NCBI GenBank assembly: GCA_021156245.1
Contig: JAJNBO010000088.1
Span: forward strand, 1-11,707
Source of the DNA: Ramlibacter sp.
GTDB lineage: Bacteria; Pseudomonadota; Gammaproteobacteria; Burkholderiales; Burkholderiaceae_C
DNA: 11,707 bases
Direction of reading: 5' to 3'
This document shows, piece after piece, positions 1,169 to 9,513 of the stretch (position 1 is the stretch's first letter; each line of letters begins with the position of its first letter). A program made the translations under genes and the position numbers. Below the pieces are notes generated by a model that made no database searches, had not been told where the DNA came from, and saw only the letters and a list, made by a program, of their open reading frames with translations.

Positions 1169-2017
1169 TCACAGCTCCGTGCGCAGCTGCCAGATCTCCG
1201 GGAACAGCACGACGTCCAGCATCTTGCGCAGGTAGCTCACGCCGCCGGTGCCCCCGGTTCCGCGCTTGAACCCGATCACGCGTTCCACCGTGGTGACGTG
1301 GCGGAAGCGCCAGAGGCGGAACGCGTCCTCCAGGTCCGTGAGCTCCTCGCCCAGCTGGTACAGGTCCCAGTTCTGCTCCGGCGCGCGATACACGGCCAGC
1401 CACGCCTGTTCGACCTCCTTGCTGGCCTCGTACGGCTTCGTCCAGTCGCGCTGCACGTGCGAGGCCGGCACTGGCAGGCCGCGCCGCGCCAGCAGCCGCA
1501 GGGCCTCGTCGTAGAGCGAAGGGGCTTCGTGCGCCGCCCGCACGATCGCGAGCCGCGCCTCGTGGTGCTCGTGCGGCTTGAGCATGGCCGCATTCTTGTT
1601 CCCGAGCCGGAATTCGATGCAGCGGTACTGCCAGCTCTGGAAGCCGCTGGAGTTGGCGAGATAGGGGCGGATGGCGCTGTACTCCGGCGGCGTCATCGTC
1701 GCCAGCACGTCCCAGGCATGCACCAGCTGTTCCATGATGCGCGACACGCGGGCCAGCATCTTGAAGGCCGGCGGCAGCTGGTCCCGCGCCACCGCCGCGA
1801 TCGCCGCATCCAGCTCGTGCAGCATCAGCTTCATCCACAGCTCGCTGGTCTGGTGCTGCACGATGAACAGCATCTCGTTGTGTTCCGGCGAGAGCGGCTT
1901 TTGCGCCTGCAGGATGGTGTCGAGCTGCAGGTAGTCGCCGTAGCTCATGTCGCGGCTGAAATCCAGCTGCGCGCGCTCGGCTTGCACGATCTCTTCCGGT
2001 TTCGGGGTGGGGTTCAT
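1169..2017 (-). CDS. kynA: Tryptophan 2,3-dioxygenase
   Basis: Haem enzyme that opens the indole ring of L-tryptophan to N-formylkynurenine, the first step of the kynurenine pathway; cytosolic tetramer. The 282-residue length matches bacterial TDOs. Landmark residues fall at the same numbers I recall for the Xanthomonas enzyme: His55 in [11 protein letters not shown] (substrate side), Tyr113 and Arg117 in [10 protein letters not shown] (carboxylate binding), proximal haem ligand His240 in [13 protein letters not shown], and Thr254 in the flexible loop KRGTGGTGG. The ATG at 2017 sits one base after the kynU stop and has a GGTGA Shine-Dalgarno-like site inside the end of kynU, so translation is probably coupled. 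It is the last gene of the kynBUA operon. Family, start and function are all well supported. Confidence 0.97.
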
Positions 2018-2018
2018 G

Positions 2019-3281
2019 TCAGGTCACCGCGTGCTGTCTGTTGAATTCGTCGCGCCGCCATTCGCCGGCGTCGAGCACCTGCCACAGGTGCTCCACCGCA
2101 TGCCAGACATCCTCGAAACGCAGGTACAGGGGCGTCAAGCCGAAGCGCAAAATGTCGGGCCGGCCGGCCCGGAAGTCGCCGATCACGCCGCGCGCTATCA
2201 GCGCCTGCACGATCGCGTAAGCGCCTTCGTCGCGCGTCAGGCAGACCTGCGATCCTCGCCGTGCGTGCTCGCGCGGCGTAGCCAGGCCCAGGCCTTGGCC
2301 GCCGCAGCGTTCTTCCACCAGCGCGATGAACAGGTCGGTGAGCGCGAGCGACTTGCGGCGCAGCGCCTGCATGCCGCCGTGCGGCTGCGCCGCCAGCACG
2401 GTGTCCAGCCCGCATTCGAGCGCCGTCATGCTCAGGATGGGCTGGGTGCCGCACAGGTAGCGCGCAATGCCGGGGGCAGGGCGATAGTCCGGCGTGAAAG
2501 CGAACGGCGCCGCGTGGCTCCACCAGCCGGCGAGCGGCTGCCAGAAGCGGTCGGCATGGCGGGGGTGCGCCCACACGAAGGCCGGCGCGCCCGGCCCGCC
2601 ATTGAGGTACTTGTAGCCGCAGCCGATGGCGAAGTCGGCCTGCGCCCCGTGCAGGTCCACCTCCACCGCGCCGGCGCTGTGCGCGAGGTCCCAGACGACC
2701 AGCGCGCCCGCGGCATGGGCCGCGGCGGTGACGGCGCGCATGTCGTGCATCGCGCCGGTGCGGTAGTTCACGTGCGTGAGCATCAGGACGGCGGTGCGGC
2801 CATCGATGGCGGAGCCGAGTTCGTCCGCCTCCACCAGGCGCAGCGTCATGCCGCGTTCCCGGCACAGCGATTCCGCGATGTACAGGTCGGTCGGGAAGTT
2901 GCTGCGCTCGCTGACGATGGTTCGCCGCGAAGGCGCGTCGGCGTGCGCGATGGACAGGGCCGCGCTCAGCACCTTGAACAGGTTGATCGAGGTGCTGTCG
3001 GTGGCGACCACCTCGCCCGGCCGCGCGCCGACCAGCGTGCCGATCTTGTCGCCCAGCCGCTGCGGCAGCTCGAACCATCCCGCCGTGTTCCACGAGCGGA
3101 TCAGCCCTTCGCCCCACTCCTGCTGCACGGCGTGCGCGATGCGCCCGGGTGCGGCCTTCGGCAGTGGGCCGAGGGAATTGCCGTCGAGGTAGATCACGCC
3201 TTGCGGCAGCGTGAACAGGTCGCGCAGCTCGCGCAGGGGATCCGCCGCATCCAGCGCGATGCAGTCCTGCAGCGTCGTCAT
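2019..3281 (-). CDS. kynU: Kynureninase
   Basis: PLP-dependent hydrolase (fold type I) that cleaves L-kynurenine to anthranilate and L-alanine. The protein has 420 residues, normal for the family. Seen in order: [11 protein letters not shown] near residue 31 (substrate/PLP region), STSIN at 96-100 (phosphate binding), NYRTG near 172, WDLAHSAG with the ring-contacting Asp198, and the Schiff-base lysine Lys224 in [12 protein letters not shown]. The ATG at 3281 overlaps the kynB TGA by four bases (ATGA), with a GAGGG ribosome site at 3289-3293, a classic coupled arrangement. The gene lies between kynB and kynA, so one transcript carries all three steps from tryptophan to anthranilate. Nothing looks damaged. 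Confidence 0.97.
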
Positions 3282-3907
3282 GCCAGGGCCCTCAGCACGG
3301 CGCGCACCGGCGAAGCATCCGCGGTCATCAGCTTCAGCGGCAGCGCGATCAGTTCATAGTCGCCCTCCGGCACGTCGTCGAGCACCAGGTTCTCCAGCAC
3401 GCGCAGTCCGCGGCGGCGGATCACCTGGTGGCTGTCCAGCGTCTTGCTGGCCGCCGGGTCGATGCTGGCGGTGTCGATGCCCACGAGGCGCACGCCGGCA
3501 TCGGCGAGGCGCTCGATCGTCTGCGGGGAAAAGGCCGCGAGTTCCGGATCCCATCGGTCGACCGGCGCGTGTCCATAGGTTCGCACCAGCACGCGCGGCG
3601 GCAGGTCGTGCGCGGCATGCGCGATGTGCTCCCACTGCACGAGCGGCCCGCGCGAGATCGCGTGGATCACGCGGCAGCGCCCCAGGTAGGCGTCGAGGTC
3701 GACGGTGCCGATCGGCTGGCCCTGGGGGTCGTAGTGCAAGGGCGCGTCGGCGTGCGCGCCCACGTGCGGTGACAGCGTGATCGTGCTGACGTTGACGGGG
3801 CAGCCGGGCGCGATCGTCGCGGCCCACTGCTGGCGGTACGGCGTGTCGCCTGGAAAGACCGGAGCGCCTTCCGCGACCGGTGGAGAGATGTCCCAGAGTC
3901 GTGTCAT
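3278..3907 (-). CDS. kynB: Kynurenine formamidase (N-formylkynurenine hydrolase)
   Basis: Metal-dependent cyclase-family hydrolase that removes formate from N-formylkynurenine, the second pathway step. The chosen ATG at 3907 gives 209 residues beginning [10 protein letters not shown], the usual KynB start and length; upstream in-frame sequence does not resemble the family. The signature [14 protein letters not shown] supplies His48, His52, Asp54 and His58. The second metal-site pair is probably His160 (DSHQ) and Glu172 (LEN), as in characterised bacterial KynB enzymes. The conserved LPLKL segment is near the C-terminus. It is the first gene of kynBUA, overlapping kynU by four bases. No kynR-type regulator is visible in the window. 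Confidence 0.96.
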
Positions 3908-3980
3908 GCGGCGGAGTTTGCGCCGCCCGATTCGCGCGTGGTGTCGGTTGGTTCCAACAGCCGGCAAAAATCCTTGAGGC
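3908..3980 (-). promoter_or_regulatory. Upstream region of the kynBUA operon with a small inverted repeat
   Basis: This 73-base gap between ykgJ and kynB must hold the operon promoter unless ykgJ reads through. A short inverted repeat GTTGG-TT-CCAAC lies at 3947-3958, about 40 bases before the kynB start. It could be an operator for a KynR-like (Lrp-family) activator, but it is short and the centre is not symmetric. I see no convincing -35/-10 pair and no strong Shine-Dalgarno sequence. Confidence 0.25.
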
Positions 3981-4310
3981 TTAAAGCATCCCTGCCCCGA
4001 GGGGTGGCATGCCATGGCGCGCACGGGCCCGTTCGCAGCCCTGACTGCCGGGCTCCAGCTCACGGCAGGGGTTGGGACGCCACTCGTAGATGCCGCAGGC
4101 GGCACGCTCGCCTACCTTGCCCGTGAGCGCGGCACAGCGCACCGGCAGGTGGTCGGTGCCGCGCATGCGCCATGTATTCCCCGTGACTTCCACTGTCAAG
4201 CCGTCAGGAACGGTTCCGCCCTCCGATTGGAGTTCGTGCACGGAAAAGTCCACCCGGTAGGCGGCGCAGCAGGCGCCGCAGCGCAGGCAGGGGTCATCGG
4301 TTTCGGACAT
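3981..4310 (-). CDS. YkgJ family cysteine cluster protein
   Basis: Small cytosolic protein of the YkgJ/UPF0153 family, thought to bind zinc or an Fe-S centre; its biochemical role is not established. From the ATG at 4310 it has 109 residues. The pattern is C8-x2-C11-x2-C14-C15 at the N-terminus (PCLRCGACC), then C59, C72 in [13 protein letters not shown]82 and C92, the usual eight-cysteine family arrangement. A GTG at 4340 would add ten residues (MPVLPGVDAR) with no family resemblance, so 4310 is preferred, although its ribosome site is weak. It lies upstream of and parallel to kynBUA with a 73-base gap, and divergent from the HTH gene across a LexA-type box. SOS control of this gene is therefore possible but unproven. 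Confidence 0.85.
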
Positions 4311-7576: not shown

Positions 7577-7618
7577 GTGAAGCCTGGGCTTCACGGGCTG
7601 ACCTGATGGGTAATCAGG
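7577..7618 (-). other. Two hairpins at the 3' end of rpsT
   Basis: CCTGAT (7602-7607) pairs with ATCAGG (7613-7618) across the rpsT stop codon. GTGAAGCC (7577-7584) and GGCTTCAC (7587-7594) form a second inverted repeat around a TG centre. Neither has its own T run. They make a structured 3' untranslated region ahead of the terminator. Confidence 0.45.
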
Positions 7619-7922
7619 CGGCCGCGGCGGCGGGCTGGAGGCCCTTGACCTTGGCGGAGAGGCGGCTCTTGTCGCGAGCTGCCTTGTTCTTGTGGAAGAT
7701 GCCCTTGTCGGCAACCGTGTCCACGATGGATTGGGCCTTGGCGAAGAGTTCGGTCGCCTTGGCCTTGTCGCCAGCGGCGACGGCCTTCTCGACGTTCTTC
7801 ACCGCGGTGCGGTACTTGGAGCGCAGCGAGGTATTGGCTGCGTTCAGCTTCACGTCCTGGCGCGCGCGCTTGCGGCCCGACGCGAGGCGGGGGTTCTTCT
7901 TCTTGGGTTTGGCAGAGGCCAT
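7614..7922 (-). CDS. rpsT: 30S ribosomal protein S20
   Basis: Small basic primary-binding protein of the 30S subunit body, contacting 16S rRNA helices. 102 residues from ATG 7922, somewhat longer than the 87-residue E. coli protein because of an N-terminal basic extension and an Ala-rich tail (QPAAAAA), as in related betaproteobacteria. Recognised by the Lys/Arg-rich N-terminus ([19 protein letters not shown]), the helical middle ([20 protein letters not shown]) and the conserved [16 protein letters not shown] at 73-88. Ribosome site AAGGA (7930-7934) is seven bases upstream of the start. It has a strong promoter with a perfect TATAAT and transcribes away from murJ. S20 often represses its own translation; no specific site is identifiable here. 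Confidence 0.97.
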
Positions 7923-7967: not shown

Positions 7968-7996
7968 ATTATAGCCCGCGGCCTTGACCCCGCCAA
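7968..7996 (-). promoter_or_regulatory. Sigma-70 promoter of rpsT
   Basis: On the - strand: TTGGCG (7991-7996), a 17-base spacer, then a perfect TATAAT (7968-7973). Transcription should begin near 7961, giving a leader of about 39 bases. It is the clearest promoter in the window and fits a highly expressed ribosomal gene. Confidence 0.85.
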
Positions 7997-8014
7997 CCGT
8001 GGGGGACCCCGGGC

Positions 8015-8020
8015 TACACT
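8015..8020 (+). promoter_or_regulatory. Candidate -10 box of murJ
   Basis: TACACT lies seven bases before the GTG start at 8028, with no Shine-Dalgarno sequence between. If it is the -10, the transcript would begin at or within a base or two of the start codon. The -35 is unclear: TTGACC at 7984 is too far away, at 25 bases. Confidence 0.35.
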
Positions 8021-8027
8021 CGGCCGC

Positions 8028-9513
8028 GTGAGCCTGTTCAAAGCCGCCTCGACCGTCTCGGTCCTGACCCTCGCGTCCCGCATCACCGGCCTCGCCCGCG
8101 ACGTCCTGTTCGCCGCCTTCTTCGGTCAGCCAGGCGTTCGTGCCGGTGCTCGCCGCCACCCGCGCCGAAGGCGGTGACGAGGGCGCCCGCCGGCTGGTGG
8201 ACCACGTCGGCACCGTGCTGCTGTGGACACTGGTCCTGCTGTGCGTCCTGGGCGTCGTCGGGGCGCCCTTGCTGGTCTGGGCGCTGGCCAGCGGGCTGCG
8301 CAAGGACCCGGCGGCCTATGACGCGGCCGTGGTGATGACGCGCTACATGTTCCCCTACATCGGCTTCATGTCGCTGGTGGCGCTGGCGGGCGGCATCCTG
8401 AACACCTGGAAGAAATTCGCGGTTCCGGCGGCATCGCCCGTGCTGCTGAACGTCATGCTGATCGGCTCCATCGTGCTGGTGGCGCCCTGGTTCCAGCGGC
8501 ACGGCATCGAGCCCATCTACTCGCAGTGCGTCGGCGTCATGCTCGGCGGCGTGTTCCAGCTGGCGATCCAGGTCCCGGCGCTGCGCCGCATCGGCATGTG
8601 GCCACGCTTCGGCCTGGCGTGGTCCGGCCTGCGCGAGTCCTGGACCGACCCGGCGACGCGCAAGATCCTCGGCCTGATGCTGCCGGCGCTGCTGGGCGTC
8701 AGCGGCGCGCAGATCTCCTTGCTGATCAACACGCAGATCGCCTCGTACCTGGCGGCCGGCAGCGTCAGCTGGCTCAACAACGCCGACCGGCTGATGGAGT
8801 TTCCCACCGCCTTGCTGGGCGTGGCGCTCGGCGTGGTGCTCATGCCCCAGCTCGCGGCCGCACGGGCGAGCCAGGACGACGAGCGCTATTCAGGCATGCT
8901 GGATTGGGGACTGCGGCTGGTGTTCCTGCTGGCCGTGCCGAGCTCGGTCGCGCTGCTCCTCTTCGGGGTGCCCCTGGTGGCCACGCTGTTCCACTACGGC
9001 GCGTTCACCGATGCGGACGTGGCGCAGGTCGCCTGGGCGCTGGCCGGCTACGGCACCGGGCTGCTCGGGATCGTGGCGATCAAGGTCCTGGCGCCGGGCT
9101 TCTATGCCAGCCACGACATGAAGACGCCGATGAAGATCGCGCTCGCCGCCCTGGTGGTCACGCAGCTGTGCAACATTGCCCTGGTGCCCTACCTGCGCCA
9201 CGCGGGACTGGCCTTGTCCATCGGCATCGGGGCGCTCGTCAACGCCGGCGTCCTGTTGGCCATCCTGCTGCGGCGCGGCCGTTATCGTCCGCGTCCGGGC
9301 TGGGGCGTGTTCTTCCTGCAGGTGATCGCCGCGACCATCGTCCTCGGCGCCTTCCTGGCCTGGGCCTCGCAGGCCTTTCCATGGGTGCAATGGCGCGCCC
9401 AGGCGTGGCTCAGGGCAGCGGCAATGGCCGGCATGCTGGCCGCGTCGGCTGCGATCTATTTCCTTTCCCTCGCACTCACCGGCGTGAAGCTGCGTCAGTT
9501 TGTCACGCGATGA
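8028..9513 (+). pseudogene. murJ: Lipid II flippase MurJ, frameshifted by an internal deletion of about 80 bases
   Basis: MurJ (MviN) moves lipid II across the inner membrane for peptidoglycan synthesis and is usually essential. The gene starts normally at GTG 8028 ([33 protein letters not shown]). At GGT 8124-8126 the sequence jumps: one extra base (8127), then codons from 8128 read [14 protein letters not shown] in the +1 frame and continue intact to TGA 9511-9513 (461 codons). Compared with E. coli MurJ as I recall it, residues 34-60 (27 codons) are absent, including the essential-region Asp39, Arg52-Arg53 and Glu57. The unshifted frame stops at 8175. With the missing codons restored the protein would be about 521 residues, the family norm. 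Downstream motifs are well kept (GGILNTWKKF, GSVSWLNNADRLMEFP, VKVLAPGFYASHDMKTP). Restart at GTG 8140 would lack TM1 and much of TM2. Confidence 0.88.

Follow-up and report, generated by a model that had tools for sequence, protein, structure and literature searches.

The closest described system for the gene studied here is MurJ (MviN; TIGR01695/PF03023), of which the accessible part of PMC6465408 describes residue Asp39 as essential and Glu57 as important. A second point of comparison is the spurious pseudogene, since pseudogenes may, in the account given in the accessible part of PMC11017572, be technical artefacts of sequencing or assembly. The Ramlibacter locus described here resembles MurJ in that 461 of its codons score above the family cut-off and its first 33 codons are identical in DNA to those of an intact relative; it differs in that, as assembled, it is without positions 34-60 and has its parts out of frame, a difference that we judge to be artefactual. 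With spurious pseudogenes it shares the occurrence, in this MAG, of genes that are frame-broken yet otherwise conserved, whereas the faults seen here are gaps several bases long, from 31 to about 124. We conclude, with a probability of about 0.96, that the murJ break is no real feature but an artefact from the assembly of a fragmentary Ramlibacter MAG. In the organism itself, murJ is most likely ordinary and intact.

The murJ locus and its counterparts in relatives

The stretch of DNA analysed (the window) is contig C520, 11,707 bases long, from a MAG of the genus Ramlibacter that comprises 3.31 Mb in 556 contigs and is 69.17% complete. The nearest named relatives of the window are mostly Ramlibacter, and the closest relative found is L032, a locus of another Ramlibacter MAG. 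The features to which we refer are as follows.

1169-4105, minus strand: three neighbouring genes, open throughout, which we take to encode tryptophan dioxygenase, kynureninase and kynurenine formamidase, a kynurenine pathway cluster
7614..7919, minus strand: divergent neighbour of murJ, open throughout and inside the stretch aligned to L032; presumably ribosomal protein S20 (rpsT)
8028..8126, plus strand: 5' part of murJ, 33 codons from a GTG, normal in translation
8126..8128, plus strand: almost certainly a false join, at which 80 bases of L032 are absent (pairwise alignment; alignment with twelve relatives)
8128..9513, plus strand: remainder of murJ, 461 codons and a stop, normal in translation and by profiles, in a different frame from the 5' part
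8140..9513, plus strand: mechanical ORF of 457 aa that starts at GTG 8140, which automatic annotation might call and which presumably, going by our TM assignment, is without TM1 and most of TM2

On the left of the join, positions 8025-8126 are identical to L032 at 102 of 102 bases; after 8126 the translated first frame leaves the family sequence and ends at a stop codon at 8175-8177. On the right, the 461 codons match NCBIfam murJ_mviN (TIGR01695) over positions 60-503 of 506 with 348.6 bits (cut-off 235.55) and Pfam PF03023 with 355.3 bits (cut-off 27.4), above the cut-off in both cases, and they are 95% identical to L032 in amino acids. The gap with respect to L032 measures 80 bases and is out of frame (80 mod 3 = 2), with a single base T at the join that can be assigned to either side. 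Instead of an uninterrupted frame of about 520 residues, the window thus has murJ in two frames with 80 bases absent, and the positions 34-60 that it lacks, including Asp39 and a G/A-E-G-A motif with Glu57 in TM2, are present in the relatives. An earlier note on this DNA had described the same layout, a loss of about 80 bases, or 27 codons with one base left (27 codons make 81 bases, and alignment with L032 gives 80), between normal residues 1-33 and a normal stretch from 8128 to 9513 in a different frame, and the translations and the TIGR01695 match agree with it. Its placement of residues 39, 52, 53 and 57 in the lost segment holds if the residues of L032 are numbered from its GTG, and its impression that the remainder shows no decay was borne out: the 461 codons contain zero internal stops, and purifying selection is visible in them in comparison with L032 (dN 0.034 and dS 0.49 by NG86; 0.027 and 1.91 by YN00).

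In the relatives, 79 of 80 named loci have the 27 codons ahead of the match complete and open, and in the eightieth (L101) 24 of the 27 are present before the start of the contig is reached; a natural in-frame absence of the segment in close relatives, which the earlier note had envisaged, was not seen. (From this comparison 14 of 29 further rows, on the minus strand, were left out; L004, L006, L007, L008 and L010 were used, strand-corrected, in later comparisons.) All 79 named loci tested have murJ in one frame across at least 90% of its length, the reference locus L033 being left out of the count, and in each of the other 40 genomes the frame with the best murJ match is open for 515 residues or more from stop to stop. 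Because murJ is in one frame in 79 of 79 loci, the break is not a family variant; it is more than chance, and no natural variant among the relatives seen.

Two side observations concern these relatives. Just upstream of its murJ (at about 2816), L032 is in alignments without 44 bases that the window has at 7980-8023, and most other aligned relatives also have sequence there, so that there is a gap beside murJ in the sister MAG too. Genome G003 has a second MurJ-like protein (C59:3724-5079; matched positions 1-457, 42% identical), which could be a paralogue or, with an estimated contamination of 9% in that genome, a contaminant.

The identity to L032 is uneven across the join, the 102 bases on its left being identical and the murJ body 87.7% identical, an excess of 12.3 points. 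Among 91 pairs formed by fourteen relatives the 5' end is the better conserved in 72, with a mean of 2.7 points and a maximum of 9.3, and the contrast in the window exceeds that in every one of these pairs. A local strain mixture at the join would be compatible with such a contrast, and would be another form of assembly fault. Other ideas about the join were tried and rejected. In L032 the homologous stretch is no more stably folded than its shuffles (z -0.16), which gives no reason to assume a hairpin; a repeat-mediated deletion is not supported, as both sides of the join share one base only; and stripped or filled scaffold gaps, taken as the exact step, would fit the absent Ns and an overlap close to zero, but adjacent duplications show no overall excess.

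Broken genes elsewhere in the assembly

Unrelated genes of this assembly show the defect of murJ as well. We took 857 mechanically chosen ORFs from G011 C1, a contig of an isolate of the genus, and compared them with 81 MAG contigs, the window included and four of them fully masked. For 72 of these ORFs the best match had at least 60% identity, and the matches were whole and in one frame in 42 cases, cut by contig ends in 17, partial in nine and multi-frame in four. Three of the four multi-frame rows are clean out-of-frame gaps, of 80 bases in murJ, 95 in acnB and 31 in an acyl-CoA synthetase gene, while the fourth (r19) was set aside because its reference ORF is spurious; those of the nine partial matches that were listed on re-inspection looked like over-long reference ORFs and not like breaks. 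As a control, 17 genes neighbouring murJ were put to the same test, at an identity limit of 50%, in 79 other named loci. The 291 gene-locus pairs gave 186 whole matches, 104 partial ones (many loci end inside a gene) and a single multi-frame one, at a gene start in L035, which by coordinates only was judged a divergent N-terminus rather than a break.

A homology-free frame scan of the MAG, covering 77 readable contigs (0.61 of 3.31 Mb, window included), found 18 breaks in 611,684 bases, versus nine in 1,181,414 bases of the isolate contig cut into 8-kb pieces (one-sided binomial p = 0.0006, or 0.0009 without the window). The scan detected 121 of 150 simulated gaps and missed the acyl-CoA synthetase break, and its codon model, trained on the isolate's own genes, may favour the isolate. 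At the isolate rate about 4.7 breaks would be expected in the 0.61 Mb that gave 18; part of the 18 are false positives, as the isolate gave nine too, and scaling the excess to the whole MAG yields, by extrapolation, about 70 broken genes. Family searches covered 30 of the 32 parts from 16 events (all but the window and acnB). Seven of the 18 breaks are one family across two frames, namely murJ, acnB, glyQ, hisS, rho, urtB and an epsE-like glycosyltransferase, and the remaining 11 received no confirmation from family matches. The broken loci outside the window, each split over two frames, are these.

L253 (C538), about 7733: glyQ
L255 (C540), about 7703: hisS
L150 (C114), about 2256: rho
L250 (C535), about 728: acnB, 95 bases absent
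L149 (C113), about 2767: urtB
L165 (C519), about 3856: epsE-like gene
L240 (C504), about 3910: acyl-CoA synthetase gene, 31 bases absent

Against three of three relatives each, glyQ is 41 bases short and hisS, judged from BLAST block positions, about 124 bases short. In searches of the whole MAG glyQ is represented only by positions 2-121 and 130-291, rho by 2-363 and 370-414, hisS by 85-278 and 322-400 and acnB by 1-224 and 256-843, the two parts in every case being neighbours on one contig; hisS and acnB each have one weak match elsewhere, and the first 84 positions of hisS are absent only since the contig ends there. No intact glyQ, hisS, rho or acnB was found in these searches of the 69% complete MAG, and the indispensable glyQ, hisS and rho are thus split there with no intact copy found.

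Duplications and placeholders were also surveyed. At position 4153 of L153 (C117) 62 bases are duplicated exactly and in tandem, which puts a membrane-protein gene, about 1.5 kb away from a TRAP-type solute-binding gene, out of frame, and at 8638 of L238 (C502) there is an exact adjacent duplication with a unit of 39 bases. Adjacent duplications are alike in number per Mb (12 in 0.61 Mb of the MAG, 24 in 1.18 Mb of the isolate), and two long exact ones of the MAG alone looked unusual, by eye. No N runs occur inside the 77 readable contigs.

Proposed faulty joining and its alternatives

We suggest that, during assembly or scaffolding, two sequence ends were joined directly across a short stretch for which usable reads were lacking, which would have left out the 80 bases of murJ. 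Such a join would have had next to no overlap and no Ns put in as placeholders; like faulty joining may have cost other genes between 31 and about 124 bases and, in one gene, probably duplicated an end of 62 bases. The missing bases, the intact relatives, the recurrence of the pattern in indispensable genes and the absent N runs are observed; the joining step and a coverage gap as its cause are what we infer. The joins inspected have little or no sequence shared between their sides, and faulty end-joining is favoured as the explanation because the gaps of 31 to about 124 bases, the little shared sequence, the exact duplication and the absent N runs all fit it. A cell in which glyQ, hisS, rho and murJ are all broken is not viable, and the common cause must therefore lie in the assembly.

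The earlier note had left the choice between a very recent event and an artefact, and had considered an essential gene to be broken in the organism. Its artefact half is supported; the other half, a real and recent event, is not. Breakage at the level of the organism is contradicted by the like breaks that the one assembly has in glyQ, hisS, rho and acnB, and its conditional statement that the cell must use another flippase therefore has no basis. A real, very recent 80-base deletion would have killed murJ, and lipid II would then be flipped by a SEDS protein, by a transporter of the Wzx or Wzk kind or by a second MurJ encoded in the third of the genome that is missing. The clean gap and the undecayed remainder would agree with this, and substitutes for MurJ do exist: the accessible part of PMC4990322 reports Wzk as one in Helicobacter pylori and E. 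coli, and that of PMC12096821 reports that, in Bacillus subtilis, an excess of the Und-PP-making enzyme makes up for the loss of both MurJ and Amj. In the MAG, the search for alternative flippases that the earlier note had proposed returned one Wzx-like protein (PF01943) and a single MurJ match; it found neither a second murJ nor an intact copy of the gene, nor any fragment with the missing segment, nor, at E <= 0.001, an Amj (PF10997), for which only Bacillus subtilis was positive among 14 control genomes. The absence of substitutes is weak evidence, about 31% of the genome being missing. Weighing more heavily against a real deletion, together with the 79 of 79 intact named loci, is that glyQ, hisS, rho and acnB have a like defect and that intact copies of them were not found; we know of no plausible bypass for the loss of glyQ, hisS or rho. 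We therefore regard a real deletion as very improbable, and it is a shade less probable still that this Ramlibacter lineage is, through such a fresh deletion, truly without a working MurJ and moves lipid II by Wzx-like or SEDS proteins.

Just as improbable as a real deletion, in our estimate, is a gap that exists in a minority of dying or mutant cells, in a chimeric molecule or in a strain mixture, and was taken up by the assembler. MAG contigs are a consensus of mixed cells, and the 102 identical bases left of the join, with an excess larger than the largest among the 91 pairs, could be read in this way; however, that stretch is short and the 5' end is the better conserved in 72 of the pairs anyway, lethal variants should not make up a consensus, and the accident would have to be repeated in unrelated genes of one MAG. 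That murJ might instead be decoded into a functional protein by programmed frameshifting, bypassing or a restart at GTG 8140 is the least credible proposal, its chances being negligible. The layout would permit coupling, with GTG 8140 in the second frame and a stop at 8175 closing the first, but it is seen in none of the 79 named loci tested, and no decoding event supplies the 26-27 conserved codons that are absent, among them the G/A-E-G-A motif and the position of Asp39, the residue called essential in the accessible part of PMC6465408. The earlier note had likewise dismissed programmed frameshifting, rightly, as the coding sequence itself is missing.

With an assembly artefact as the preferred reading, the murJ break is unimportant as biology, and its value is one of caution. 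In annotation this MAG would be given many false pseudogenes, indispensable genes among them. Claims of gene loss drawn from it, or from similar fragmentary MAGs, need to be checked for a like defect elsewhere in the same assembly.
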